A DNA stretch of 21,611 nucleotides from IMG/VR virus record IMGVR_UViG_3300028837_000431, positions 1 through 21,611 of that record. One strand, 5' to 3'. Positions 4,910 to 20,335 of this stretch are shown one piece after another (the stretch's first letter is position 1; the number at the start of each line of letters is the position of its first letter). Position numbers and translations under genes: made by a program. The stretch comes from a virus. Below the pieces are notes generated by a model. That model saw nothing but the letters and a program-made list of their open reading frames with translations. It made no database searches and was not told where the DNA came from.

Positions 4910-5700
4910 TACTGGTATCTCCGGGGCGTCCGGTTGATCCAGCCAGTTGCGCGGTTGTTCCAATACTTCCTTCGGGACATCCGGCCAGCACAGGGGATCT
5001 GGTAGTCCTGGTGCGGCAGGGGCTCCATCGGTACTTGGAGCAGGCGGATGAGTAGCATCTCACTCTGGCGCTTCAGATCTACGATGCTCAGGTCCTTCTG
5101 GAGCCGTAGGTAGATCGCGCAGAGGTTGACGTACACCTGATCGAACTTCATCGGGAACGGGGCTGAGTCAGCATCGGCCCAGTCCTGGTAGCCGTAGGAA
5201 ACCACCATGATGGAGCTAGAACCGGCCGTGTTGGGGGGTTGCCCTATCCATAGCTGCTGGCCTTCCCCTGAACTGCCGGGTACGGCCGTCAGGGTGTAGT
5301 AGAGCGGGTCTGCGATGCTCATGGAGTTCGCACCCCACAGGATCTCAGCCAGGAACTCCCAGTCAGCAGGCTTGAGGACAGTGTGTGTTCCACCGGCCGA
5401 GAGGTCGTCCCCCTCGTCGGAGATGTGCACAGCCTCGATGTCCGACCCCACCTGGGTGGTGCCCCACAAGAAGGTCGTCACCGGGTTGGTGATGGCCGAG
5501 TCGTGGTAGGTGATGAACCGGGCGCTGGGGTGCCGCTTGTGGATCAGGGTCGACATGAGCTCAGCATACGCCGCGTCAGCAGCGTAGGCTGTCTCAGTCG
5601 AAGTCCAGAGGGAAGTGTCGGTTCCTTCGGAGTCACCCGCTAGGATCAGGGCTTCCGTCTGGAGTTGGGTCTTCGTTCGTGTCCGGAGATCCAGACTCAT
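4909..5700 (-). CDS. Head-tail adaptor (tail tubular A-like) protein
   Basis: This 263-residue protein starts at ATG 5700, preceded by AGGAGATGAAACAAA. The N-terminal third is helical (RTRTKTQLQTEALILAGD, then AYAADAAYAELMSTLIH), the middle is beta-rich, and residues about 180-225 form a long helical stretch with LCAIYLRLQKDLSIVDLKRQ. This helix-beta-helix plan, and the place just before the nozzle-like gene, match the adaptors that sit between portal and nozzle in podoviruses (T7 gp11 or P22 gp4 type). The start lies 68 bases inside the preceding glycosyltransferase gene, a long overlap for this cluster. The very C-terminus is Arg/Asn rich (GWINRTPRRYQ). Family assignment is by architecture and gene order only. 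Confidence 0.65.
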   Translation of the reverse strand: MSLDLRTRTKTQLQTEALILAGDSEGTDTSLWTSTETAYAADAAYAELMSTLIHKRHPSARFITYHDSAITNPVTTFLWGTTQVGSDIEAVHISDEGDDLSAGGTHTVLKPADWEFLAEILWGANSMSIADPLYYTLTAVPGSSGEGQQLWIGQPPNTAGSSSIMVVSYGYQDWADADSAPFPMKFDQVYVNLCAIYLRLQKDLSIVDLKRQSEMLLIRLLQVPMEPLPHQDYQIPCAGRMSRRKYWNNRATGWINRTPRRYQ

Positions 5701-6427
5701 TTTGTTTCATCTCCTCGATTACGCGTTGCGGGGGCGGGGGGAAGTACGTGTGACTTCCGATGTGCCCAACATGGCATCCAAAGTGGACGGACGGCCGGTA
5801 GCCTGCGATCTGGAGCTTCTTCATAAAGGAGGAGTCCTCCCCGAAGAAGAGGTACTGGCCCTTGCCGGCTGCTACGTCCGGCACCCAGGCAGGTTGGAAT
5901 AGGGGGGCCTTGAGCTTCTTGAAGCAGTCCCCCCGCATGAGGGTGAAAGCTAGGCCAGTCACATCCACAGGGTGGATTGGATTTTCCTCATCCTCGATAT
6001 AGCGCAGGCACCGCTCTTGGACCTTGGCTGCTACCTTCCAGCCGGTCTTGCCTTCGCGCCAGTTCACACAGAAGTTGTTGCTGCCATCCCGTCGAACTGC
6101 CAGAGCGGAGATCAGACCCATTTCGGGGTCCGCCTCCAACGCTGCATGGAGCATGTGGAAATGCTGGGGATGGAATACCATGTCGCTGTCGACCCAGAGT
6201 ACGAAATCCTCGTTTTGAACTCGTGCGGCCAACATCGTCCGGGCTACTGCAACTTCGGCTACGCCGATCATGTCACACATAAATGGGATCTGACCGCGCA
6301 GCTGTAGGAGGCTGTTGACGGTTTGCACGTCGAAGCCTTTGTACGCTGGGATACAGACCCGCAGTGATCGTTCCTTCTTTTCCTCGATCTTGGGATCGCT
6401 TTCGCTCATTGTATCGGGTTTCTCCAT
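5633..6427 (-). CDS. Family 2-like glycosyltransferase (GT-A fold)
   Basis: This 264-residue protein (from ATG 6427) reads as an inverting GT-A glycosyltransferase, which passes a sugar from a nucleotide donor to an acceptor. After about 20 charged residues, the first strand is LRVCIPAYKGF (22-32). Residues 72-84 hold the metal-binding DxD motif in VLWVDSDMVF (D80-S-D82). G196-E-D198 in FFGEDSSFMKKL is at the usual place for the catalytic acidic pair, and H215, H219 and H222 follow in a His-rich loop. The C-terminal 35 residues are Pro/Asp/Glu rich and overlap the adaptor gene. ATG 6427 has no ribosome site and abuts a small hairpin; ATG 6409 with GGAG upstream is an alternative. The acceptor is unknown: a virion protein, cell-wall glycan or DNA base are all possible. 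Confidence 0.8.
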   Translation of the reverse strand: MEKPDTMSESDPKIEEKKERSLRVCIPAYKGFDVQTVNSLLQLRGQIPFMCDMIGVAEVAVARTMLAARVQNEDFVLWVDSDMVFHPQHFHMLHAALEADPEMGLISALAVRRDGSNNFCVNWREGKTGWKVAAKVQERCLRYIEDEENPIHPVDVTGLAFTLMRGDCFKKLKAPLFQPAWVPDVAAGKGQYLFFGEDSSFMKKLQIAGYRPSVHFGCHVGHIGSHTYFPPPPQRVIEEMKQNESGSPDTNEDPTPDGSPDPSG

Positions 6428-6446
6428 AATTGCGTGATGGGCAATT
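6428..6446 (-). promoter_or_regulatory. Small hairpin abutting the glycosyltransferase start
   Basis: AATTGC at 6428-6433 pairs with GCAATT at 6441-6446 around a 7-base loop. In the mRNA this stem ends directly at the ATG at 6427, where a ribosome site would be expected and none is seen. It could hide or space the start and so lower or control translation of the glycosyltransferase. A chance stem of six pairs is also possible. Confidence 0.4.
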
Positions 6447-6457
6447 AGTGAAAAGTG

Positions 6458-6483
6458 GGGTACCCCCCCGAAGGGGGGTACCC
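6458..6483 (-). terminator. Rho-independent terminator-like hairpin with TTCG loop
   Basis: On the minus strand an 11-pair stem (GGGTACCCCCC with its exact complement) closes on a TTCG tetraloop, one of the most stable RNA loops. It lies just after the stop of the 143-residue beta protein, in one of the few non-coding gaps of the cluster. The stem is followed by CAC and then only four T residues, so the U tract is weak. It may be a partial terminator that lowers transcription of the tail genes relative to the capsid genes, or an RNA-stabilising 3' end. Confidence 0.7.
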
Positions 6484-6491
6484 TACAGTGT

Positions 6492-6923
6492 TTACGGACT
6501 GATCGCGTTCTTGCGAAGCGACAGCCACATCTTCGAGTTGGTGAAGCTCGTAGTGCCTCCACCGTAGGTGAAGACGAACCTACCCAGGGCATTGGTAGCT
6601 TTGCCACCCTGGATAATCATCACCGGCCAGAACTCGGCAACTTCACCGTCAGTTCCGGTGGCTACTGCCGAGGCTCCCGTGGGGCTGTTGGCAGCCGCAG
6701 GGGAGGGAATCCAAGAGGTTCCACCATCGGGCGACAGCTCAAGGGCCGCGGTCACAGTCAGGGAAGCCGCATCTCCCGATGCGGTTCCAACGACAGCGAC
6801 GAAGCCAACCTGATCTGCGTCCGAGAAGGAGAACTGCTCGGAGGTTGCTAGGGTTGCGGAATTGCAGGTGATGGCGTTGATGTCTGCCTTGGCTGCAGTC
6901 CGTAGATAACGAAGGACGTTCAT
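6492..6923 (-). CDS. Small beta-rich virion protein, possible capsid decoration or head-completion protein
   Basis: This 143-residue protein starts at ATG 6923 after a strong site (AAGGAGTACAGA). It is rich in Ala, Thr, Ser and Gly, has no Cys apart from one near residue 20, and shows alternating hydrophobic residues (GFVAVVGTASGDAASLTVTA), as in small beta-sandwich virion proteins. The phrase ALELSPDGGTSWIPSP resembles loops found in many phage head and tail surface proteins. It is the last gene before the TTCG hairpin and lies two genes after the capsid gene, and it has a strong ribosome site like the capsid gene, so an abundant particle component is likely. The exact role is not recognised. 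Confidence 0.65.
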   Translation of the reverse strand: MNVLRYLRTAAKADINAITCNSATLATSEQFSFSDADQVGFVAVVGTASGDAASLTVTAALELSPDGGTSWIPSPAAANSPTGASAVATGTDGEVAEFWPVMIIQGGKATNALGRFVFTYGGGTTSFTNSKMWLSLRKNAISP

Positions 6924-6933
6924 TCTGTACTCC

Positions 6934-7446
6934 TTACGATTTGGTGTTGGTTTTCAAACGCTTCCGAAAGGCCTCGTAGAACTCCTCTTCCTGGATTTGG
7001 TGCTTCTTGCTCGTCTTATGACCGTTGACCGCCTGAGCAGTCTGTAGTGACTGGTCACAGAGTTTGCAGTAGAAGCCCTTCTCGCCTTCGGGTTCGAAGA
7101 TCTCAATTGAGAGACCAGTCTCCGTCTCCTTCTCTTTGGCAGCGATGAACTCAACGCCGTACTTAGGATGCGTGGTCAGGAAGTCGATGACCTCCTGTTC
7201 AGACATATTGATGTCCTTTGCACCTGCTTCCGTATCGTAAAAGCCTTGTGCCTTCCCTGCCTCGGACCCTTCCGAGACTGTTGGCAAGCCCGGAGCGTGG
7301 ATGCTAGCTCCCGGTGCGAACTGGAGGAACTTGATCCACTTGGGCTTGTTGATTCGAGGAACTGTACCTTGAGTAGTCTTGACAAAGTCCTCGAAGCCTG
7401 GAACGATTAGAAGTGTCGGGGACTTTCCCCTTGAAAGAAAAATCAT
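6934..7446 (-). CDS. Protein with a single C2H2 (U1/matrin-type) zinc finger, next to the capsid gene
   Basis: This 170-residue protein starts at ATG 7446 with a near-perfect ribosome site (AAGGAG, 5 bases away) that overlaps the end of the capsid gene. Residues 125-149 carry C127-x2-C130-x12-H143-x5-H149, with aromatic residues before the first Cys and SKKH at the end. That spacing and the KKH ending are those of U1-like/matrin zinc fingers, which bind double-stranded RNA or DNA in eukaryotes. Residues 79-105 (INMSEQEVIDFLTTHPKYGV) look like a small helical unit, and the N-terminus is short and beta-like. The C-terminus is a charged helix. In phages such a protein next to the capsid gene might be a head-completion or DNA-binding virion part; this is inference. 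Confidence 0.8.
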   Translation of the reverse strand: MIFLSRGKSPTLLIVPGFEDFVKTTQGTVPRINKPKWIKFLQFAPGASIHAPGLPTVSEGSEAGKAQGFYDTEAGAKDINMSEQEVIDFLTTHPKYGVEFIAAKEKETETGLSIEIFEPEGEKGFYCKLCDQSLQTAQAVNGHKTSKKHQIQEEEFYEAFRKRLKTNTKS

Positions 7447-7455
7447 GAAAGCTCC

Positions 7456-8643
7456 TTACGCAGCGTTCGTGATTCGCCCGTGGGTTTCCTCGAAGGCGCG
7501 GAAAAGGCCGAACTCAGTGATGTACTCGTCCTTTCGTGCGTCCTTGTCGTTGGCCTGGATGTTGGTCTTCAGCTTGGTATCGCGGCCCTTGAGGAACCGG
7601 TAGCCCAGGTTGTCCATATCCAGTACGAAGCCATACTTGCCGTGCGTGGTGCCTTCGAGCAAGTTGTGCTTCGTGACCATGAGGACCCCGTGAGGAGTCA
7701 GAAGTCGAACGATGTCGATACCGAAGGTGTCGTCCTTGGGCACCATCTCAAGGTACTTGATCGCCTCAAGACTGATGTTGGTAACAACACTACGGGCCGC
7801 CAGGAACAACTTCTTTTCGCTGCCGTAGCGGAACACGTCTTCGCAGAAATTGAAGAACGTGACCATGTTGAAAATTCCGCCGAAGTCGGAGTCGTTCGTT
7901 CCGCCATCAGCAATGAATGCGTTGATGCCCCCACTGGACCGAACTGCGGCACCAACGGAGCCATCAGAGAGTGTGTTGGAGGTACCGCGAGAGCCGAACA
8001 ACAGGACGTTTTCGATCTCTACGGAATGCTCCGCAGCCTTCTTCCGGGCCTGATAGCTCAGGTCGGCCTCACCGTAGAGGTCAGTTGCGAGCTCGGTGTT
8101 GGTGAACTCGAACGGAGACCGCTTGATCTCGGTGTAGTTGTAGTCGAAGACCTTCTTCGTGGTCCGGCCGTTCTCAGAGGTCGCGCCTTCGTGCGCCATT
8201 CCGCCGAGGAGGGTCAGACTGTCATTGTCCAGTAGAGCCGCGGCAGAACTAGCGCCCCAGCCTCTGGTGACGGTGACGGTGTTGCCAGAAGCGGACATGG
8301 TGGTTACGCGCATCACCTCGCCAGTCCGCTGTACCTGGACCAGAGAGTTGGTGCCGTAGTACCCACCGTTGTCAACCGTGATAACGGTTGCAGTGGACCA
8401 CGTTCCGCCCGACATGTTGACCGCATCGAGGGTCGGGATATGCTGATCCGTGGACCACTCGAACTTGGAGTTTGCTACAGCCTTCTTACTGATCTTGCTG
8501 GTGAGAAGGGCCAACTGCGCCCGATTGGGTTCCAACAGGTGGACGGCGTCGTCCATCTCGATAATCATTGACTGCGTCGAGATGGCGTAACCCGTGGTTC
8601 CGCCTGCTGACCTCATCGGTGATAGAATAGTAGGTGCTGCCAT
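7456..8643 (-). CDS. Major capsid protein (SU10-like, DUF5309 type, HK97 fold)
   Basis: This 395-residue protein starts at ATG 8643 with the strongest ribosome site of the cluster (GGAGGAAATA before ATG), as expected for the most abundant virion protein. Residues about 60-140 form a beta-rich insertion (TVITVDNGGYYGTNSLVQVQ) and the middle has the long spine-like helix region with DLSYQARKKAAEHSVEIENV. The last 60 residues (GFVLDMDNLGYRFLKGRD, then EYITEFGLFRAFEETHGRI) match the conserved end of SU10-type capsid proteins, where a strand and a Gly-Arg-Asp turn precede a final beta hairpin. A scaffold gene lies directly upstream. There is no protease domain or obvious cleavable N-terminal pro-region. 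Confidence 0.88.
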   Translation of the reverse strand: MAAPTILSPMRSAGGTTGYAISTQSMIIEMDDAVHLLEPNRAQLALLTSKISKKAVANSKFEWSTDQHIPTLDAVNMSGGTWSTATVITVDNGGYYGTNSLVQVQRTGEVMRVTTMSASGNTVTVTRGWGASSAAALLDNDSLTLLGGMAHEGATSENGRTTKKVFDYNYTEIKRSPFEFTNTELATDLYGEADLSYQARKKAAEHSVEIENVLLFGSRGTSNTLSDGSVGAAVRSSGGINAFIADGGTNDSDFGGIFNMVTFFNFCEDVFRYGSEKKLFLAARSVVTNISLEAIKYLEMVPKDDTFGIDIVRLLTPHGVLMVTKHNLLEGTTHGKYGFVLDMDNLGYRFLKGRDTKLKTNIQANDKDARKDEYITEFGLFRAFEETHGRITNAA

Positions 8644-8663: not shown

Positions 8664-9686
8664 CTACCGCATGAACTCGATAGCCTGTGAAGGCCTACCG
8701 GCCCCTAGGATGTCAGCTTTCACTGAATCCTCTTGGGTCCCCTCCGCTTTAGGGGTGATTAGTTTTTGCCCACGCTTGGTTGCGCGAGTTTGTCGTCTGG
8801 TTGTAAGCGGTGCCGGTCCTTTCTTTTCATCAGGCCGTCCTTCTTGGAGCTGGTCATCGGCCCTTTGAACTGCGCGAGATACTGCTAGGGTTGCTGTGAC
8901 GATACCTTGTGGGCTCTTTGCGAGTTCGGGATTGATTTCGAGATACTGGTACAGCATACTACCTTCTCGTTTCTCATCCGCTTCTCGCACGATTGCGGCC
9001 TCTAGGCCACCCATGTTGTACGCCGCCTGCAAACCTGTAGCGAGTTGTGCGCTAAGTGCGTGGCGATTCGCTTCCTCGTCGCTGCCCTCCTTGATGTCCT
9101 GGACCTGCTCTTTGATCCCGCCAATTTCCTTGTTGATAAGGGCTTTGGCCTCAAGGGTAACAAGCGCCTTCATTGTGGTACCGATGGTCTTCGGGTCCGA
9201 GAAGCCCTGGGCTAGTGCAGCCTGGACAGCCGGATCGGAGTAGTCGATCCCACCCTCTTCCTCCACAACCTGCTTCTCAGGCGCGGGGCGCCCGACCGGA
9301 GCTGGCTGGGGAGTGTACGATTTCAACTGGCCTTCTAGAGCAGCCAGCCGTTGCTTCAAAGCTTCGTTCTCAGAGTCGACTGGCTTCGCAGCCGGTTGCT
9401 CTGCATATTCGCTTCTGACACGGGAGAGAACTTCGTCGTACTCAGCCGGGTCCTCTTCTTCTTCTTCGGTTGCCTCTTCGCCCTCTACCGGTGTAGACGT
9501 TTGACCGTCTCTGGCAGGCGTATGTGTCGGCGTCAAACCCTCGTCGGGATCGGGGCCCGTCTCTTCCTGTGCGTCTGGATCGGGGTCTACAAAGTCGGCG
9601 TCTTTCTCGACGATGCCCTCTTCGAAGGGCAAACCGAATTCTTGTAGGTTCCCTTTCCTCTCCACTTGGAGCGGATTATCTGGCAT
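8664..9686 (-). CDS. Scaffold / capsid assembly protein
   Basis: This 340-residue protein sits between the portal-side genes and the capsid gene, the usual place of a scaffold, which guides procapsid assembly from inside and is then lost. It is strongly acidic and low in complexity over residues 25-85 (runs of Asp, Pro and Glu). Residues 104-123 (DSENEALKQRLAALEGQLKS) form a clear coiled coil. A helical C-terminal half follows (GLQAAYNMGGLEAAIVREAD) and the end is basic (TTRRQTRATKRGQK), the part that in known scaffolds contacts the capsid protein. ATG 9686 overlaps the upstream stop (TAATG) and has AAGGA nine bases before it. Confidence 0.82.
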   Translation of the reverse strand: MPDNPLQVERKGNLQEFGLPFEEGIVEKDADFVDPDPDAQEETGPDPDEGLTPTHTPARDGQTSTPVEGEEATEEEEEDPAEYDEVLSRVRSEYAEQPAAKPVDSENEALKQRLAALEGQLKSYTPQPAPVGRPAPEKQVVEEEGGIDYSDPAVQAALAQGFSDPKTIGTTMKALVTLEAKALINKEIGGIKEQVQDIKEGSDEEANRHALSAQLATGLQAAYNMGGLEAAIVREADEKREGSMLYQYLEINPELAKSPQGIVTATLAVSRAVQRADDQLQEGRPDEKKGPAPLTTRRQTRATKRGQKLITPKAEGTQEDSVKADILGAGRPSQAIEFMR

Positions 9687-9988
9687 TAGCTATCGTCCTT
9701 TTCCTGGGCTTCTTGCGCCACCTCGATCTGCTCCTGAATCACTGCTGCATCTAGGTTCAAGATGTCGAGGATGTACGAGCCTTCGCTCACACGCGCCTGT
9801 AGTTGAGCTACAGCACCCACGTTGTTGGGGTCTACCATCACTAGGTGTTCCGCGGCTTTTCGCGCACGGGCTTCGATCAAGACTTTGAAGGCCTCACCAC
9901 CGGGGGACTGCTTGATCTCCGAGATGGCTTTGAACTCATCCAGCCCAATGGCTGTACCTTCGGGTACTTCGGCAAAAAGGTCGATCAT
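9686..9988 (-). CDS. Small helical protein between portal and scaffold
   Basis: This 100-residue protein starts at ATG 9988 inside the portal stop (ATGA), with AAGGAG ten bases upstream. It is mostly helical: residues 16-47 (LDEFKAISEIKQSPGGEAFK, then a basic RARKAAEHL) and a C-terminal acidic helix (AAVIQEQIEVAQEAQEKDDS). I do not recognise the family. Position between portal and scaffold, size and helicity are similar to small accessory head proteins of other podoviruses, whose jobs are often unknown. It could act with the scaffold or the portal during assembly. Confidence 0.65.
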   Translation of the reverse strand: MIDLFAEVPEGTAIGLDEFKAISEIKQSPGGEAFKVLIEARARKAAEHLVMVDPNNVGAVAQLQARVSEGSYILDILNLDAAVIQEQIEVAQEAQEKDDS

Positions 9989-11862
9989 CCCTGTATGTCT
10001 CCTTCACTTGGCGTCTGCGCTCCTAGCTGTGCCGCTTGCATTTCGGCTTCTGAGCCTGCGACACCGGCCTCCCCCTGCGGGGCCTGTTCTGCTGCTAGTT
10101 CCGCAGCCTGTTGTTGCTCTATGACTTGTCGCCCCTGCTGGATCAATCCAGAGGCGTCGTCGAAGCCGAACGATTCGGCCATGTCGAGCATGATTCGCTC
10201 CATCAGGGGATGCTGGAGCGGAATTCCAATTGAACCAAACGTCTGTATTGCTGCATTGGCCCGTTGCAGTTTGACCTGCCGTGACTCGGGCTCGGTGGTT
10301 GATACGTCGATCTTGATGTCCATGTCCAGACCGGTGCGGTTCGCCAGGTCCTCTGGGGTGATGGTCTCGAAGGAGTCCTCCTCGAACATCCCACCGGTGA
10401 TCCTGACCTGCTTATCCGTGTCCATGTAGATCTCGTTGAGCAGCGTGACCAGATACCCCCACTCGTTGAGGGGGCCATCGGTCAGCAGCTTGAACATCAG
10501 GCCCGCTCGGGACCCGGAGGCTTGTGCCAGCAGGTTGGCTTCAGTAGCCGTCCCTCCTGTGAGGTTGGAAGCGAGTCCCTGGAAAGTGTCGGTAGCCCCA
10601 CCAGCCCGTTGTGCCCACATCCGGATCTCGTCCGTCTCGCGGTGGAGAGAAAAATCCATCGGTGCGGTCTGGAGTTCCTCAATGTCACGCATGTCGTCAA
10701 CATAGAGTGCCCCTCCTGGGCGGAACCGAAGTTGCTGGGCAGAGATGTTGGACGTTCGGAGGATCTTGAACATCCGATGGGCTGCATAAAGCAGGTTGTC
10801 CATCCGTGAGCTATGGAGGATGTTGAGCTCGATAGCCAGTGAGTATAGAACCTCCGCAAGAGAGATGCCATAGAACTCCTTGGGCAGCGGGATCGGGCAG
10901 AACTTGATGAAGGGCTTGCGGCCCAGGGGGTTCATCCGGTACTGGATGGGCTCCAGTTGCTCGTTCTCCTTGACTACGGAGACGATCTTGCCGTCATACC
11001 AGCACTCTAGCTCGGTGATCTCCCGTTTGTGGTCGTCGATGCCCAGCAGAAGGTCGCCGAAGGTGGATTTCCGGTTGTCGGCCAGGGTATCGGCCGGGTT
11101 CTCGGCCATATTGCCGGTCTTGCTCCAGTCTAGGAGGGCCCGGACAGCCTTCTCGTCGTAGATCTCTTCGCCAGCCTGCAATGAGGCGACGATTGACTCA
11201 AGGTTCACCTTCCGCTTGTGGATGACCCACGCGCAGGAGTCAATATCCCAACCATCGGGGTCCGGGATGATCTCATCCAGGTCCATGAGGTCAACCCAGG
11301 GGTCATCCCACACTATCATCGGCTGGGTAACGACACTGTTCTCTTCTGTGAACTGCCCTGGGATCTCTAGGAGCCCATCGAGCATGGTCTTGGGCGTTTG
11401 TTCGATCACTCGGGCCAGACGGTTGCGAACTTCCTTGCGGTAGGACAGTTTCCAGATCGCGGTGCCGTAGATCTTCGCATTCTTCACGTAGTCCACGAGA
11501 TGGAGAGGCATCTTGAGTGCATCCCACCCGTAGTCCACCAAGAGGCGGTGTTTACCAGCCCGGCCGCGATCTTCCTCGTTGCGGGGCCACACGTTGATCT
11601 CAGGCTTGTTAGCCGCCAGCCGGGGCATGTAGCTCTCGATGTCCGCGAAGACCAGAGGGATGCCGAGCTCCGACATCTCGCCGTCCATCGGCATCTCGTA
11701 GTACGTGCGGTAGGCCTCGTAGTTCGTGTCCCACTGCGGTTGCCGGTTCTTCACCGGGTCCCAGCCGCGCTTGTAGTTGTCAAAGACTACCTTCGCCTGC
11801 TCCTTCGCAGGGAGCAGCTCATCGGTCCAATCCATTACGCTTGCGGCTTTGTTGTCTGGCAT
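9985..11862 (-). CDS. Portal protein
   Basis: This 625-residue protein forms, by inference, the twelve-fold ring through which DNA is pumped and later leaves. The start ATG 11862 directly follows the terminase stop (TAAATG). Residues 11-60 are helical with DELLPAKEQAKVVFDNYKRG, and residues 68-86 (IPLVFADIESYMPRLAANK) are the conserved 'wing' stretch in which the substrate-facing core of P22/T7-type portals begins. Later segments include KNAKIYGTAIWKLSY and the stem/crown helices with EFYGISLAEVLYSLAIELN. The C-terminal 70 residues are Gln/Ala rich (QQQAAELAAEQAPQGEAG), a common flexible portal tail. Order terminase, portal, scaffold, capsid is classical. Confidence 0.9.
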   Translation of the reverse strand: MPDNKAASVMDWTDELLPAKEQAKVVFDNYKRGWDPVKNRQPQWDTNYEAYRTYYEMPMDGEMSELGIPLVFADIESYMPRLAANKPEINVWPRNEEDRGRAGKHRLLVDYGWDALKMPLHLVDYVKNAKIYGTAIWKLSYRKEVRNRLARVIEQTPKTMLDGLLEIPGQFTEENSVVTQPMIVWDDPWVDLMDLDEIIPDPDGWDIDSCAWVIHKRKVNLESIVASLQAGEEIYDEKAVRALLDWSKTGNMAENPADTLADNRKSTFGDLLLGIDDHKREITELECWYDGKIVSVVKENEQLEPIQYRMNPLGRKPFIKFCPIPLPKEFYGISLAEVLYSLAIELNILHSSRMDNLLYAAHRMFKILRTSNISAQQLRFRPGGALYVDDMRDIEELQTAPMDFSLHRETDEIRMWAQRAGGATDTFQGLASNLTGGTATEANLLAQASGSRAGLMFKLLTDGPLNEWGYLVTLLNEIYMDTDKQVRITGGMFEEDSFETITPEDLANRTGLDMDIKIDVSTTEPESRQVKLQRANAAIQTFGSIGIPLQHPLMERIMLDMAESFGFDDASGLIQQGRQVIEQQQAAELAAEQAPQGEAGVAGSEAEMQAAQLGAQTPSEGDIQG

Positions 11863-13404
11863 TTACGAAATCCCCAAGATTTTAGGTCGCCCTGTCCGTG
11901 GATCTTTCTTCGTGAAGTCTGACTTCTGCTTACGCATCGCCAATGCTCTTGACTGGGCGTATCCGTACCGCTCGTAGTTGTTTTCGACTGACATGTCTTC
12001 TGGGTCTCTCCAGGTGTCGGACAAATAGCGCGGTCGGGCGGTCAGCATATATCGTAGGGCGTCAGGCAAGTGGTCGTCCTTTTTTCTGGGCTTGTCGGGC
12101 TGGTCCAAGTCTGTCCTGTTATTCACTTCCATGAACTGGTAGTTTTCCAGGCTTCGGATCAGTTTCTCGCACTTGACGCTGATGTAGAGCTTCGGGTGTG
12201 TCGTACTGTCCTGTAGTGTTGCTCTCAAATACTGGCTCACCAAGGAGATGCCGGGCATTACGTCATCGTCGGCTTGTCGGGCGTAGATTCCGTTGGCGCG
12301 GTAGACTCTGATTGGGGCGTTGATCTCGGCGTCCCTGGTGTTACCAAATCGTCGCGCCGCGTCGGGCGAGATGTAGGTTTGATAAACTGGCTCGGGACTC
12401 TTGGCTGTGATGTTCTGTGCATGGTCCTCGTGAATCGTGTTGGCCTCTTCGTACTCTCGGAAGATCCAGACGTTGTTATGTTCGTCGACTTTGCCCCAGA
12501 CACAAGCCGTTGGAAGGCGGAATCCGATGTCGATTCCCCGGTTGACTGTCCAATTTGCTTGGACGGGCTGTTTCTCGGGGTCAAAGAGTTGTCCGCCATC
12601 TTCGACGAGTTTGGCTTTGAAGTCGGGGTAGATGAGTCCGCCGAAGTCTTCGAAACTGGCTTCGTACTCTCGTCGCCAGATGATCTCGGGCGTCTGGGCC
12701 TTTTTGGTCTCAAGCCAGTCTTGGTTGACGAAAGGGTTGTCGGCTGTTTTGAAGGTTGAAGCAGCCCAGCCCTTTCCAGCTGTATCATCGTTGAAAGCTC
12801 TGAGGAAGTAGTCATAGAACCAGTTCTTCCCGCGGGGGGTAGAGATGAACAGTGCCCGACCTTCTCGGTCGATGGTCGTTGGCTCCAAATTCTCCAGCCA
12901 GATCATCTCTGAGCAGCGAGCGCATTCGTCGAATACCAGTAGGTCTAGTTGCTCCCCGATGAGGGAGTCCGGCGCCTCGGCAGACTTGCCTCGGACCATC
13001 GACCCCCAAGCCATCTCAATGTATCGGTTATCACGAGTCTTACTCGCCTTGACAACGGCACCGGGTCCGAAGCAATTGTCGAGTACAACCCACTTGTATA
13101 CCCACTCAAATACTCGGTCGGTAAGCTCGTAGTTAGGAGCGACGATCCAAATTTTCCTGTCCGGAAGACCAAGCTCCGCCGTGATCTCAGCGGAAGCGCC
13201 AATAGTTTTTCCAGTCCGTCTTCCCCAGTCGAGTACATTGTACCTCCACTCATCGAAGTGCAACTGCGCCTGTCCAGGGTGCTGCTTGACCCCGTCGAGG
13301 TAGCTGATCTCTTGACCCCTGATCCGAACCTTCAGGTTCGAGAAGAGGGTCTGCTTGTAGAGATTTAGTTGGACTCGGTTTGTGTAGTCGAAGGTTTCAG
13401 CCAA
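11863..13404 (-). CDS. terL: Terminase large subunit (ATPase and nuclease)
   Basis: This 513-residue protein is the DNA-packaging motor and head-filling nuclease. Walker A is W60-GRRTGKT (61-67), with the Arg-rich form usual in terminases. Walker B is DLLVFDE (154-160), with E160 as the catalytic base, and the coupling motif is ISTPRG (187-192). The RNase-H-like nuclease has GIDIGF (D292), SPDAA (D348) and DDHLPDALRYML (443-454), the three acidic clusters expected for metal binding. No ATG is available near the start; TTG 13404 has a good site (AGAGGAAG, 5 bases before) and lies 40 bases inside the small-subunit gene. Length is typical of the family. Confidence 0.95.
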   Translation of the reverse strand: MAETFDYTNRVQLNLYKQTLFSNLKVRIRGQEISYLDGVKQHPGQAQLHFDEWRYNVLDWGRRTGKTIGASAEITAELGLPDRKIWIVAPNYELTDRVFEWVYKWVVLDNCFGPGAVVKASKTRDNRYIEMAWGSMVRGKSAEAPDSLIGEQLDLLVFDECARCSEMIWLENLEPTTIDREGRALFISTPRGKNWFYDYFLRAFNDDTAGKGWAASTFKTADNPFVNQDWLETKKAQTPEIIWRREYEASFEDFGGLIYPDFKAKLVEDGGQLFDPEKQPVQANWTVNRGIDIGFRLPTACVWGKVDEHNNVWIFREYEEANTIHEDHAQNITAKSPEPVYQTYISPDAARRFGNTRDAEINAPIRVYRANGIYARQADDDVMPGISLVSQYLRATLQDSTTHPKLYISVKCEKLIRSLENYQFMEVNNRTDLDQPDKPRKKDDHLPDALRYMLTARPRYLSDTWRDPEDMSVENNYERYGYAQSRALAMRKQKSDFTKKDPRTGRPKILGIS

Positions 13405-17796: not shown

Positions 17797-18418
17797 TGCG
17801 GTCTGCTGCCTCCTCGAAACCGTCGTACTGCCACTCCTGGAAGACTTGCATGTCCTCCTCGTAGTAGCCGGCGCCGATCTCGTAGGTCGCGTCCATCTCA
17901 CCTTTGCCAGCGTAGGGGTGTTGGTGATCGAACTGGATGTATGGTAGGTACCGCAGGCGTCCGGTCGCCCCAGCCAGTTGGTACCAAGCGGTGTCGAGGA
18001 ACGAGTGCTTCAGTCCTGGGACCGCCCAATATCCAACCGCTCGCATCAGGTTTCCGCCGATGCAGTGATGGGTGCAAAGATCAGGTCCGTGTAATAGATC
18101 GTCGGGATAGGCCACGTAATCCAGCCCAGCTGCCACTTCCAATTGTACCTGCCAGTCGCTTGGCGAAGGTATGACATCGTCCGCCATAAGGCCGTAGCTC
18201 AGGGCATTGGGATAGGATTCTAGACACCAGTTGAGAGTGTCGCACAGATTGCGCCTTGGTCCTATATGGATCGTCCACCCCTTCGTAAAGGGGATACTTC
18301 GGTAGTCCTCTAGCTTCTCGTCGTCTTCGTGGAGATAGACGTGCAGCTCGGAATCCGGGAACTTTTCGGACAACTTTTTTAGCTTCTCGGGCCTTCCTAA
18401 GCTGGGGAGAATCCACAT
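17765..18418 (-). CDS. GT-A-like glycosyltransferase, 217 aa
   Basis: ATG 18418 overlaps the epimerase stop (TAATG) and GAAGAG lies eight bases before it; a TTG seven codons upstream is less likely. The protein starts straight in a first strand (MWILPSLGRPEKL), typical of short GT-A enzymes that begin with a nucleotide-binding strand. LHVYLHEDD (25-33) is the second strand and YGLMADDVIPS (75-85, D80-D81-V) is the metal-binding acidic motif in the expected place. A later segment with LCTHHCIGGNLMR and FLDTAWYQL resembles the acceptor side. It probably uses the product of the upstream epimerase/dehydratase or a related nucleotide sugar. Acceptor unknown. Confidence 0.7.
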   Translation of the reverse strand: MWILPSLGRPEKLKKLSEKFPDSELHVYLHEDDEKLEDYRSIPFTKGWTIHIGPRRNLCDTLNWCLESYPNALSYGLMADDVIPSPSDWQVQLEVAAGLDYVAYPDDLLHGPDLCTHHCIGGNLMRAVGYWAVPGLKHSFLDTAWYQLAGATGRLRYLPYIQFDHQHPYAGKGEMDATYEIGAGYYEEDMQVFQEWQYDGFEEAADRIAMAREDSRL

Positions 18419-19413
18419 TAGATAAGCTCTTCCCGCCAAGTGATTGGTGTTGCTGCCGTTGATATTTCAACAGGGAGATGGTATCGGAAGGGTTTCGTAC
18501 CCCTCTCCCTAATGTGAAGGACAAGGGATTCGAGAGTGTCGACCAGTAGATGACGCGTTTTGTACCCATAGGTCCTCCGAGCTCGATTGGCTGAGCAAAC
18601 CGCGTGCTTGACTTCTTGCGGCCGATCTTCGACGTAGTCTATCATCTTCGGCGCCTCCGGGATGAGATCCCACAGGTGCTTGACTAGCTGGTTGATCGTG
18701 ACTTCCTCCTCGTCAGGACCGATGTTCACAGTGAAGTTCTGTGGACCGTCGATCATCTTGACGAACACCGGTACGATGTCACGGATGTCTGAGAAGCAGC
18801 GCGTCTGCTCTCCGTCGCCATAGACGATGGGCTGCTGTCCTTGCAGCATCCGGTTCGCCATGATGGACGCGACGTTGCGGAAAGGGTCGTCGTACTTCTG
18901 TCGTGGTCCTACAATGTTGTGCGGCACGGCGATGATGTACTCTACGCCGTGCACTTGGGACAACAGCTGGAGGACCTTCTCTGCCGCGACCTTGGCTATC
19001 CCGTAAGGGTCCTGGGGGCGCGGGGTGTCAAACTCGCTGAAGGGGGTTGGCCCTTTTCCGTACCGTGCCATCGAGGAGCAGAAGATGATCCGCCTGACCC
19101 CCGCGGCGATTGCTGCGGAGAAGACCGCTACGCTGGCGCCGAAGATTGACTCGGTGATGGTGTATGGCGAGAAGACGCTCAGGCCTTCGTGGGCCAGTGC
19201 CGCGCAATGAAATACAGTATCCACACCGGCAAGGTCATCGGCTGTGATCTCCTGGCAGTCCTGGGTGTAGTACGGAATCCCGTTCGGGACGTTCTCAGGA
19301 TCGCCACCGCTCATGTTGTCGAAGCCAATGACTTCGTACTCTGGCAGAAGGGCCTCCGCGATGTGAGACCCGAGGAATCCGGCTATACCGGTGATGGCGA
19401 TTCGTCGCTTCAT
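18418..19413 (-). CDS. NAD-dependent sugar epimerase/dehydratase (extended SDR)
   Basis: ATG 19413 (331 residues) overlaps the upstream stop (ATGA); the frame continues upstream to 19548 but inside the previous gene. The Rossmann motif is G9-x2-G12-x2-G15 in ITGIAGFLGSH, with D32 at the end of the second strand for NAD(H) binding. The catalytic set is S113/S114 and Y137-G-I-A-K141. HNIVGPRQ and the later 'YGDGEQTRCFSDIRDIV' match the substrate side of UDP-glucose 4-epimerases and dTDP-glucose 4,6-dehydratases. It would convert a nucleotide sugar in the cytoplasm, supplying the neighbouring glycosyltransferase. Which sugar is changed cannot be settled by eye. Such enzymes are uncommon inside a virion operon. 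Confidence 0.88.
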   Translation of the reverse strand: MKRRIAITGIAGFLGSHIAEALLPEYEVIGFDNMSGGDPENVPNGIPYYTQDCQEITADDLAGVDTVFHCAALAHEGLSVFSPYTITESIFGASVAVFSAAIAAGVRRIIFCSSMARYGKGPTPFSEFDTPRPQDPYGIAKVAAEKVLQLLSQVHGVEYIIAVPHNIVGPRQKYDDPFRNVASIMANRMLQGQQPIVYGDGEQTRCFSDIRDIVPVFVKMIDGPQNFTVNIGPDEEEVTINQLVKHLWDLIPEAPKMIDYVEDRPQEVKHAVCSANRARRTYGYKTRHLLVDTLESLVLHIRERGTKPFRYHLPVEISTAATPITWREELI

Positions 19414-19943
19414 CCCGTGATGTAGTAACCCTGGACGAGAACGTGGTGGTCGACCAGTGCGGTCAAGGTGTCTCCAGTAACCAAGGCGAGATACTGGCCC
19501 TTGTCGCCATCGAGGTATACTGGCTGGCCGCTCTTGGCGAACGTCCACCGGGAGACGAGCATGTCGTCGCCCTGGCCGTAGGATATGTAATCGGTGTCGT
19601 AGCAGTAAGAAGTCCAGTCAGCGTTCGACTGGATCGGGTGGTTCGCATCGGTGAGGGCGTAGAGCAGCTGGTCGGGCACCATGTCCACAGTGCCGTAAAC
19701 GCCGATGGTAATGCCTGCCGTAAGAGCTGCTGCCATCCCGCCGTACCGCTCGGCGTAGAAGCCGCTTCCAGCCGCGGTGTCTTGAATGAAGGGGATGCAC
19801 CGGTTGAGCTGGACCTTCTCACCAGCTGCTGGGGTGAAGGACCAGGTGTGTGCGTCACCATCTGCTGGGAGGATCTGAGTGAAAGTCCCATTCCGCATCA
19901 AGCGGGAGATGAGCTTACTCTGAGGAACTGAATTCGGTTGCAT
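19410..19943 (-). CDS. Beta-rich protein of unknown role, probably virion-associated
   Basis: Two ATGs lie in tandem at 19946 and 19943; the ribosome site GAGGA suits the second (five bases), giving 177 residues. The protein is rich in Thr, Gly, Tyr and Asp with alternating hydrophobic residues (TFTQILPADGDAHTWSFTPA, ITIGVYGTVDMVP, QYLALVTGDTLTALVDHHVL), as in jelly-roll virion proteins. Two Cys (about 48 and 114) and many Tyr are notable (TSYCYDTDYISYGQGDD). No family is recognised. The position before the sugar enzymes leaves open whether it is a substrate of glycosylation or part of the head or tail surface. Confidence 0.65.
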   Translation of the reverse strand: MQPNSVPQSKLISRLMRNGTFTQILPADGDAHTWSFTPAAGEKVQLNRCIPFIQDTAAGSGFYAERYGGMAAALTAGITIGVYGTVDMVPDQLLYALTDANHPIQSNADWTSYCYDTDYISYGQGDDMLVSRWTFAKSGQPVYLDGDKGQYLALVTGDTLTALVDHHVLVQGYYITG

Positions 19944-20331
19944 CATCTTCCTCTTCGTTAATGTCTTCGTACTGGATTGAAACCACTCCGCCTGAGCTCA
20001 GGTCCGTGTCGTTGTCGAAGGGTAGCACAAGCTGCGGCGATGACGTATCCGGGCGCCTCACTTCGATCTTGCACACATTGGGGCGGTCTGCGATTATAGA
20101 TTCCACAACCGCAATCATCTGCGAGGAACTGACAGATCCGTCCGGGTCCCACAATATCTCTGCCGAGTAGCCATCCAGCATTGACACAGCAAGCTCCGCA
20201 TCCTGTGCAATTCCACTCTCCTTCTGAGTCGAGAAAATCTTCGATAAATCTATCCCAGTCTGTGCTTCCACATACTGGTCGATTACCTTCAACGGGATTC
20301 GGAGGAGCTTCTTCGGCTTGAGCTTCCCCAT
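19915..20331 (-). CDS. Second frame overlapping the cysteine-cluster gene; 138-residue protein of unknown function
   Basis: From ATG 20331 this frame is open for 138 codons and covers nearly all of the cysteine-cluster frame, shifted by one base. By my count 87 of its 138 codons end in G or C (about 63%), which looks like its neighbours, and its second positions are AT-richer, the usual pattern of a real gene. The protein has a basic amphipathic start (KPKKLLRIPLKVIDQYVEA), a helical middle, strands near KIEVRRPDTSSPQLVLPF, and an acidic tail (NEEEDDATEFSSSE). The tail codons also carry the ribosome site of the next gene, and the frame overlaps that gene's start. No family recognised. Either this is the main gene, or both are made. 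Confidence 0.55.
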   Translation of the reverse strand: MGKLKPKKLLRIPLKVIDQYVEAQTGIDLSKIFSTQKESGIAQDAELAVSMLDGYSAEILWDPDGSVSSSQMIAVVESIIADRPNVCKIEVRRPDTSSPQLVLPFDNDTDLSSGGVVSIQYEDINEEEDDATEFSSSE

Positions 20332-20335
20332 TCAT
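19958..20335 (-). CDS. YkgJ-like zinc/iron-chelating cysteine-cluster protein
   Basis: ATG 20335 overlaps the upstream stop (TAATG). The 125 residues carry C43-x2-C46-x2-C49-C50, then C68, C75, C77, IY (79-80), RP (83-84) and C87, with C103 later in AACATLRQRHG. This 'CxxCxxCC ... C ... CxIYxxRPxxC' order is the hallmark of the YkgJ family, proposed to chelate zinc or iron and found in many phages, usually as a small protein of this length. Function is not settled in any system. Its codons end in G or C only about 38% of the time, unlike its neighbours, and a second frame runs through the same DNA, so expression needs proof. Confidence 0.7.
   Translation of the reverse strand: MNGEAQAEEAPPNPVEGNRPVCGSTDWDRFIEDFLDSEGEWNCTGCGACCVNAGWLLGRDIVGPGRICQFLADDCGCGIYNRRPPQCVQDRSEAPGYVIAAACATLRQRHGPELRRSGFNPVRRH

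Follow-up and report, generated by a model that had tools for sequence, protein, structure and literature searches.

A C2H2 zinc finger of the JAZ/matrin class encoded next to the capsid gene of a tailed phage with an SU10-like head

Described fingers and the class of the window finger

JAZ/matrin fingers are best known as binders of double-stranded RNA (dsRNA) and for their contacts within the spliceosome, and one finger alone usually binds weakly. To our knowledge, such fingers are known almost only from eukaryotes and eukaryotic viruses. The described proteins closest to the one studied here are the JAZ (ZNF346)-type proteins, represented in Pfam by zf-C2H2_jaz (PF12171) and described there as dsRNA-binding, and the ZMAT2/Snu23, SF3A-type, TUT1, and TUT4 proteins. 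Human ZMAT2 is a spliceosomal zinc finger protein of the matrin type. The Ros/MucR proteins are transcription regulators whose zinc-binding domain is larger, and they are not among the families matched by the proteins of the window (i.e., the whole 21,611-nt stretch of viral DNA analyzed here). These bacterial C2H2-like zinc fingers bind DNA (PMC9779718). The class of the finger described below is known, and no phage head operon using it was found in PHROGs or in the open-access literature searched. None of the three orthologs (the window protein and those of the related contigs L002 and L003) matched any family of PHROGs v4, and that literature contained no account of phage heads with a matrin-type finger.

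The finger gene (6934–7446, minus strand) starts with ATG and encodes 170 amino acid residues. A preliminary description had placed in it a U1/matrin-type finger with the spacing C127-x2-C130-x12-H143-x5-H149; the coordinates, residues, and spacing proved exact, and both the aromatic residues ahead of the first Cys (F125-Y126) and the ending S146-K147-K148-H149 are present. The finger occupies residues 125–150 (6997–7074, minus strand) and has C127, C130, H143, and H149 as its ligands. It follows an acidic N-terminal domain (residues 1–114; 7105–7446, minus strand; pI about 5.7), which matched no known family and is conserved only with L002 and L003. The C-terminal tail (residues 151–170; 6937–6996, minus strand) is predicted to be a helix that extends the kinked helix of the finger. 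The two Cys residues of the motif are the only ones in the protein, and when its composition was shuffled 200,000 times, a C-x2-C-x12-H-x3-5-H arrangement arose twice.

The relatives L002 and L003 were found with the capsid protein as query against viral contigs (capsid identity 58–61%). Their finger proteins are 46–47% identical to the window protein and 59% identical to each other. In this small sample of three orthologs, the four ligands as well as G142, S146, and K147 are invariant, so that the Cys/His set, the loss of which in relatives would have spoken against a finger, is retained. The identity was 56–61% in the finger region and 42–59% in the remainder; at the level of sequence, the finger is therefore conserved at least as much as the rest of the protein.

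The window protein reached the cut-off of zf-C2H2_jaz in hmmscan (24.7 vs 22.6 bits), and the same model scored 27.7 bits (E 1.1e-7) at 6997–7074 (minus strand) when the whole record was searched. With this cut-off of 22.6 bits, L002 (22.7 bits) and another phage contig, L016 (26.0 bits), were also matched and L003 was not; the L003 finger lies below the curated Pfam cut-offs. The two profiles named in the preliminary description fared less well. The cut-off of zf-met (PF12874) was narrowly missed by the window protein (20.7 vs 21.2 bits) and exceeded by L016 (22.2 bits), and zf-U1 (PF06220; cut-off 22 bits) did not match the window protein and gave 13.6 bits for L003 and 11.7 bits for L002. 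When a profile of the three orthologs was compared with the PDB, the top match was human ZMAT2 (E 0.004), with TUT4, Snu23, and ZNF622 lower.

The full-length structural model (pLDDT 42) was too poor for use, and the N-terminal domain is therefore left without a fold assignment. The C-terminal fragment, modeled with AlphaFold2 from four sequences (mean pLDDT 79), showed the beta-beta-kinked-alpha pattern expected of such a finger, with strands followed by helices 26–33 and 36–57 and the break falling between the two His residues; the structure-based objection foreseen in the preliminary description was thus not borne out either. Its best Foldseek matches were spliceosomal U2-associated (U2/SF3A-type) chains and TUT1, with E-values that were weak (0.14 at best), as is usual for so short a domain. 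The closest matches superimposed with an rmsd of 0.8–1.3 Å over 37–39 columns, and the JAZ structures 2mkd and 2mkn ranked lower.

The proposed U1/matrin-type class thus stood as regards the JAZ Pfam model, the ZMAT2 profile match, and the fold matches, and failed at the zf-met and zf-U1 cut-offs. Sequence and model together support a finger of the known U1/matrin/JAZ class, although, strictly, JAZ is the only model whose cut-off was reached. The window protein resembles JAZ-type proteins in passing their cut-off, as does L002, in its C-x2-C-x12-H-x5-H spacing, and in the fold matches to 2mkd and 2mkn; it differs from them in having one finger instead of several, placed at the C-terminus of a phage protein, and in that its L003 ortholog is under the cut-off. 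The ZMAT2/Snu23, SF3A-type, TUT1, and TUT4 fingers gave the best profile (ZMAT2) and Foldseek matches, but outside the finger the window protein is unrelated to these proteins. A chance arrangement of Cys and His residues that binds no zinc would agree with the low Pfam scores of the L003 finger. Nevertheless, the invariant ligands, the shuffling result, the ZMAT2 match, and the expected fold make such a coincidence extremely improbable.

The head module and the probable capsid transcript

The 21.6-kb record contains the structural module of a tailed phage whose head is SU10-like. On the minus strand, the order is an 878-aa protein, a 178-aa protein at the small-terminase position, the terminase large subunit (11863–13404), an SU10-type portal (SU10_portal family; 9985–11862), a 100-aa protein, and a pre-capsid protein (8664–9686) that is scaffold-like in place and composition. 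These are followed by the SU10-type major capsid protein (7456–8643; SU10_MCP, 113.8 bits, cut-off 24.1), the finger protein, a 143-aa protein (6492–6923), a glycosyltransferase-like protein, a 263-aa adaptor-like protein, and a 987-aa tail- or nozzle-like protein. The terminase and portal were identified by family matches, and proteins of the module without such a match were given roles by position only.

The finger gene thus sits among capsid, portal, and terminase genes, directly beside the capsid gene as previously described, and this position is conserved. In both L002 and L003, the SU10-type capsid gene is followed by the finger ortholog, the ortholog of the 143-aa protein, and the glycosyltransferase-like and adaptor-like genes. 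Further capsid-based scans returned only these two relatives and the distant contigs L004 and L024. No ORF with a comparable finger was found near the capsid gene in L004, L024, or eight phage records with more distant capsid relatives, and we therefore regard the finger gene as a trait of one lineage. Two Cys-rich pairs in L004 belong to another, endonuclease-looking ORF and are no counterpart of the finger gene. Likewise, tblastn of the finger or of the full protein against 50,697 phage records returned no ortholog; the weak matches seen in Pseudomonas phages, Anabaena phage A-1(L), and Vibrio phage P23 ran antisense to annotated genes, and we dismissed them as coincidental.

Several other genes lie within the structural module, namely those of the glycosyltransferase-like protein (5633–6442), an NAD-dependent sugar epimerase/dehydratase (18418–19548), and a GNAT acetyltransferase (592–1146), all on the minus strand. 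Glycosyltransferase-like and GNAT acetyltransferase genes are also present in L003, in unchanged order. The products of these three genes may modify virion proteins. A putative 125-aa ORF (19958–20335, minus strand) has a Cys cluster like that of CxxCxxCC/YcgN proteins, below the cut-offs; it overlaps a 138-aa ORF (19915–20331) in a different frame, and either of the two may be the real one.

The strong ribosome site noted in the preliminary description directly after the capsid gene is the Shine-Dalgarno sequence TAAGGAG (7452–7458, minus strand), which overlaps the capsid stop codon and lies 5 nt ahead of the ATG. TAAGGAG overlies the capsid stop codon in all three phages, and the finger gene begins 9–14 nt past the stop. 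This overlap and the short gap suggest that the capsid and finger genes are translationally coupled. Behind the gene of the 143-aa protein lies a GC-rich hairpin with a UUCG loop (6455–6486, minus strand; 11 stacked pairs, −28.6 kcal/mol, z −3.8). GC-rich hairpins occur at the matching position in L002 (z −2.4) and L003 (z −1.4); the latter, taken alone, is not significant. The window hairpin was not listed by a simple terminator scan because its T-run is short. The capsid, finger, and 143-aa genes are likely carried on one transcript that ends at this hairpin, and the finger protein is plausibly abundant.

The hairpin also bears on a possible function outside the virion. The finger protein could be an RNA-binder, e.g., a late regulator acting on structured phage mRNA such as the hairpin of the capsid transcript, or an aid to RNA-mediated packaging. 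This would agree with the dsRNA binding attributed to the top-scoring class, with the GC-rich hairpin that lies 3′ of each of the three operons, and with a finger of the same subclass in an unrelated protein of another phage, beyond any capsid region (see below). However, a role as terminator accounts for the hairpin well enough, and the gene keeps its place between two head-module genes. We consider this RNA-directed function unlikely, if worth weighing.

Proposed role of the finger protein

Our tentative preference, which falls short of a firm expectation, is that the protein serves in head assembly, attaching to the head through its N-terminal domain and holding duplex nucleic acid, probably the packaged DNA, with its finger. 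The finger class, the place of the gene, the conservation of both, and the charge pattern are observed; the remaining steps are a proposal. In this tailed phage, with its SU10-type head, the capsid transcript would also direct synthesis of the finger protein, whose N-terminal domain would dock on the capsid lattice or at the portal vertex. A short linker would carry the finger, which would fold around one zinc ion and grip a nucleic-acid duplex. This duplex would most likely be packaged DNA lying at the inner head surface, and the grip could order or anchor the genome or aid its packaging. We base this reading on the finger class, the invariant ligands, the conserved place beside the capsid gene, the TAAGGAG overlap, the hairpin, and the charge distribution. 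It also draws on two parallels detailed in the next section: the finger of the PcaP2EGY portal and that encoded in the phage-like structural module of contig L050.

The charge is split in all three orthologs, with a pI of 4.5–5.7 for the part ahead of the finger and of 9.2–9.7 for the finger and tail. An acidic N-terminal part joined to a basic finger and tail fits, without proving, a docking domain with a nucleic-acid-binding tip. The same split counts against a purely structural module, in which a C-terminal domain steadied by zinc would attach to capsid, scaffold, or portal and make no nucleic-acid contact, as does the retention of S and K between the two His residues. On the other hand, such a protein-protein or folding module would suit a gene placed among head genes, and the spliceosomal U1/matrin fingers, which are the top fold matches, also contact proteins. 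We regard a finger of this kind as possible but improbable; together with the RNA-directed function above, it is one of the two chief alternatives.

Within the head-assembly reading, DNA as the ligand is the weakest step and amounts to a guess because dsRNA is the ligand with which JAZ-type fingers are mainly associated. The weak binding expected of a single finger argues against this reading, as do the phages with related capsids that have no comparable finger gene at this place. The cryo-EM reconstruction of SU10 (PMC9509320), in which minor capsid proteins left no density, also speaks against it.

The protein might instead be carried in the head and injected to act on host nucleic acid, or be a late host-directed factor. 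A protein of the virion module with a small, basic domain whose class binds nucleic acid would suit such a function. Yet no sign of an ejection-protein family was seen, and podovirus ejection-protein genes usually lie further downstream, which leaves this route very unlikely.

In tailed phages, contacts between the head shell and the packaged DNA are mostly held to be unspecific. A zinc finger tied to the head, if the head-assembly reading is true, would make one shell-DNA contact testable by point mutants and chelators.

Related fingers in other phages and in bacteria

In about 1,100 bacterial genomes of three phyla, zf-C2H2_jaz gave a single match over the cut-off. This match was 1 of 301 genomes in the phylum of an Anaerolineae genome (E up to 0.002). 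No match was found in 398 genomes of the phylum of a Rhizobiaceae genome (E up to 0.002, with no positive control) or in 398 genomes of the phylum of a Desulforamulus genome (E up to 1e-5). The last limit was too strict, as a finger like that of the window would be missed in a 4-Mb genome, and absence from this phylum is therefore weakly supported. A profile scan of genome contigs and a search of plasmids also yielded no finger. When 84,980 genomes of bacteria and archaea were scanned for the DNA pattern of GHKxSKxH, six matches arose, which is about the chance expectation by our own estimate; these matches (one of them, L027, in a 49-codon frame) contain no open finger gene and were rejected as chance. 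Scans of viral contigs with DNA patterns returned L002, L003, and one further genuine finger (L015/L016), along with the chance matches L011 and L025.

The further finger ends a 174-aa phage protein (L016:1477–2001; G001) with the sequence GYHCEACDRIFDNASGLNGHKQSKAH. It is of the same subclass and lies outside any capsid region, on a contig (IMGVR_UViG_3300031939_000013) that has no SU10-type capsid, and the protein has additional Cys/His pairs upstream.

The sole genome match over the cut-off is a 108-aa protein (L050:456–782) on a 7.1-kb phage-like contig (L050:1–7128) of a Chloroflexota bin. Judged by place and appearance, its gene is flanked by a beta-rich-looking ORF on one side and an adaptor-like ORF on the other, with a tail-like ORF nearby, and the contig has a holin match (phrog_1299, E 3.7e-10). 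Like the window protein, it is small, combines an N-terminal domain with a C-terminal finger, and is encoded in a phage structural module. It differs in its classic C-x2-C-x12-H-x3-H spacing and in an N-terminal domain that cannot be aligned with that of the window protein.

A finger also ends the portal of Pectobacterium phage PcaP2EGY (WOL25768.1; OR599646.1, L045:1729–3111; Portal_Mu, 208.6 bits). Its C-terminus, GYTCSRCGGSFANAKGLSNHVRSGC, forms a C2HC finger below the Pfam cut-offs. The portals of four PcaP2EGY relatives lack a C-terminal finger and have an acidic tail instead. This portal shares with the window protein a single finger at the end of a head-module protein, but it is a portal and not a small capsid-adjacent protein, and its finger is C2HC with other spacing, so that homology of the two fingers is putative at best (E 0.2). 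An adaptor-gene match to the PcaP2EGY finger in L048 (OR360731.1) was antisense and was dismissed as chance; it is a caution for tblastn searches with short fingers. Portals of Bacillus pumilus Andromedavirus phages share 65–70% identity with the PcaP2EGY portal, whereas the host given in the record is Pectobacterium, a label that may be wrong.

As far as can be read from the encoded proteins, a single finger at the C-terminus is found as an extension of phage structural proteins in more than one case. The finger had been called unusual for a phage head module; its rarity is borne out, but it is not unique, given the PcaP2EGY portal and the L050 protein. A bolder extension of the head-assembly reading would have a eukaryote-type JAZ/matrin finger, present in many copies inside the head, hold the genome, such fingers having been added independently, as C-terminal tags, to different head proteins of different phages (portal and capsid-adjacent); this would be a link between capsid and genome through zinc that has no earlier description. 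We think this extension rather unlikely. The occurrence of the window finger bears on the origin or the travels of JAZ/matrin fingers. Finally, proteins of about 274 aa with an N-terminal C2H2 finger (YTCKICNRQFKSIKALGGHTSGAH) were observed in L034–L038; of three Chloroflexota genomes, two have two copies apiece.
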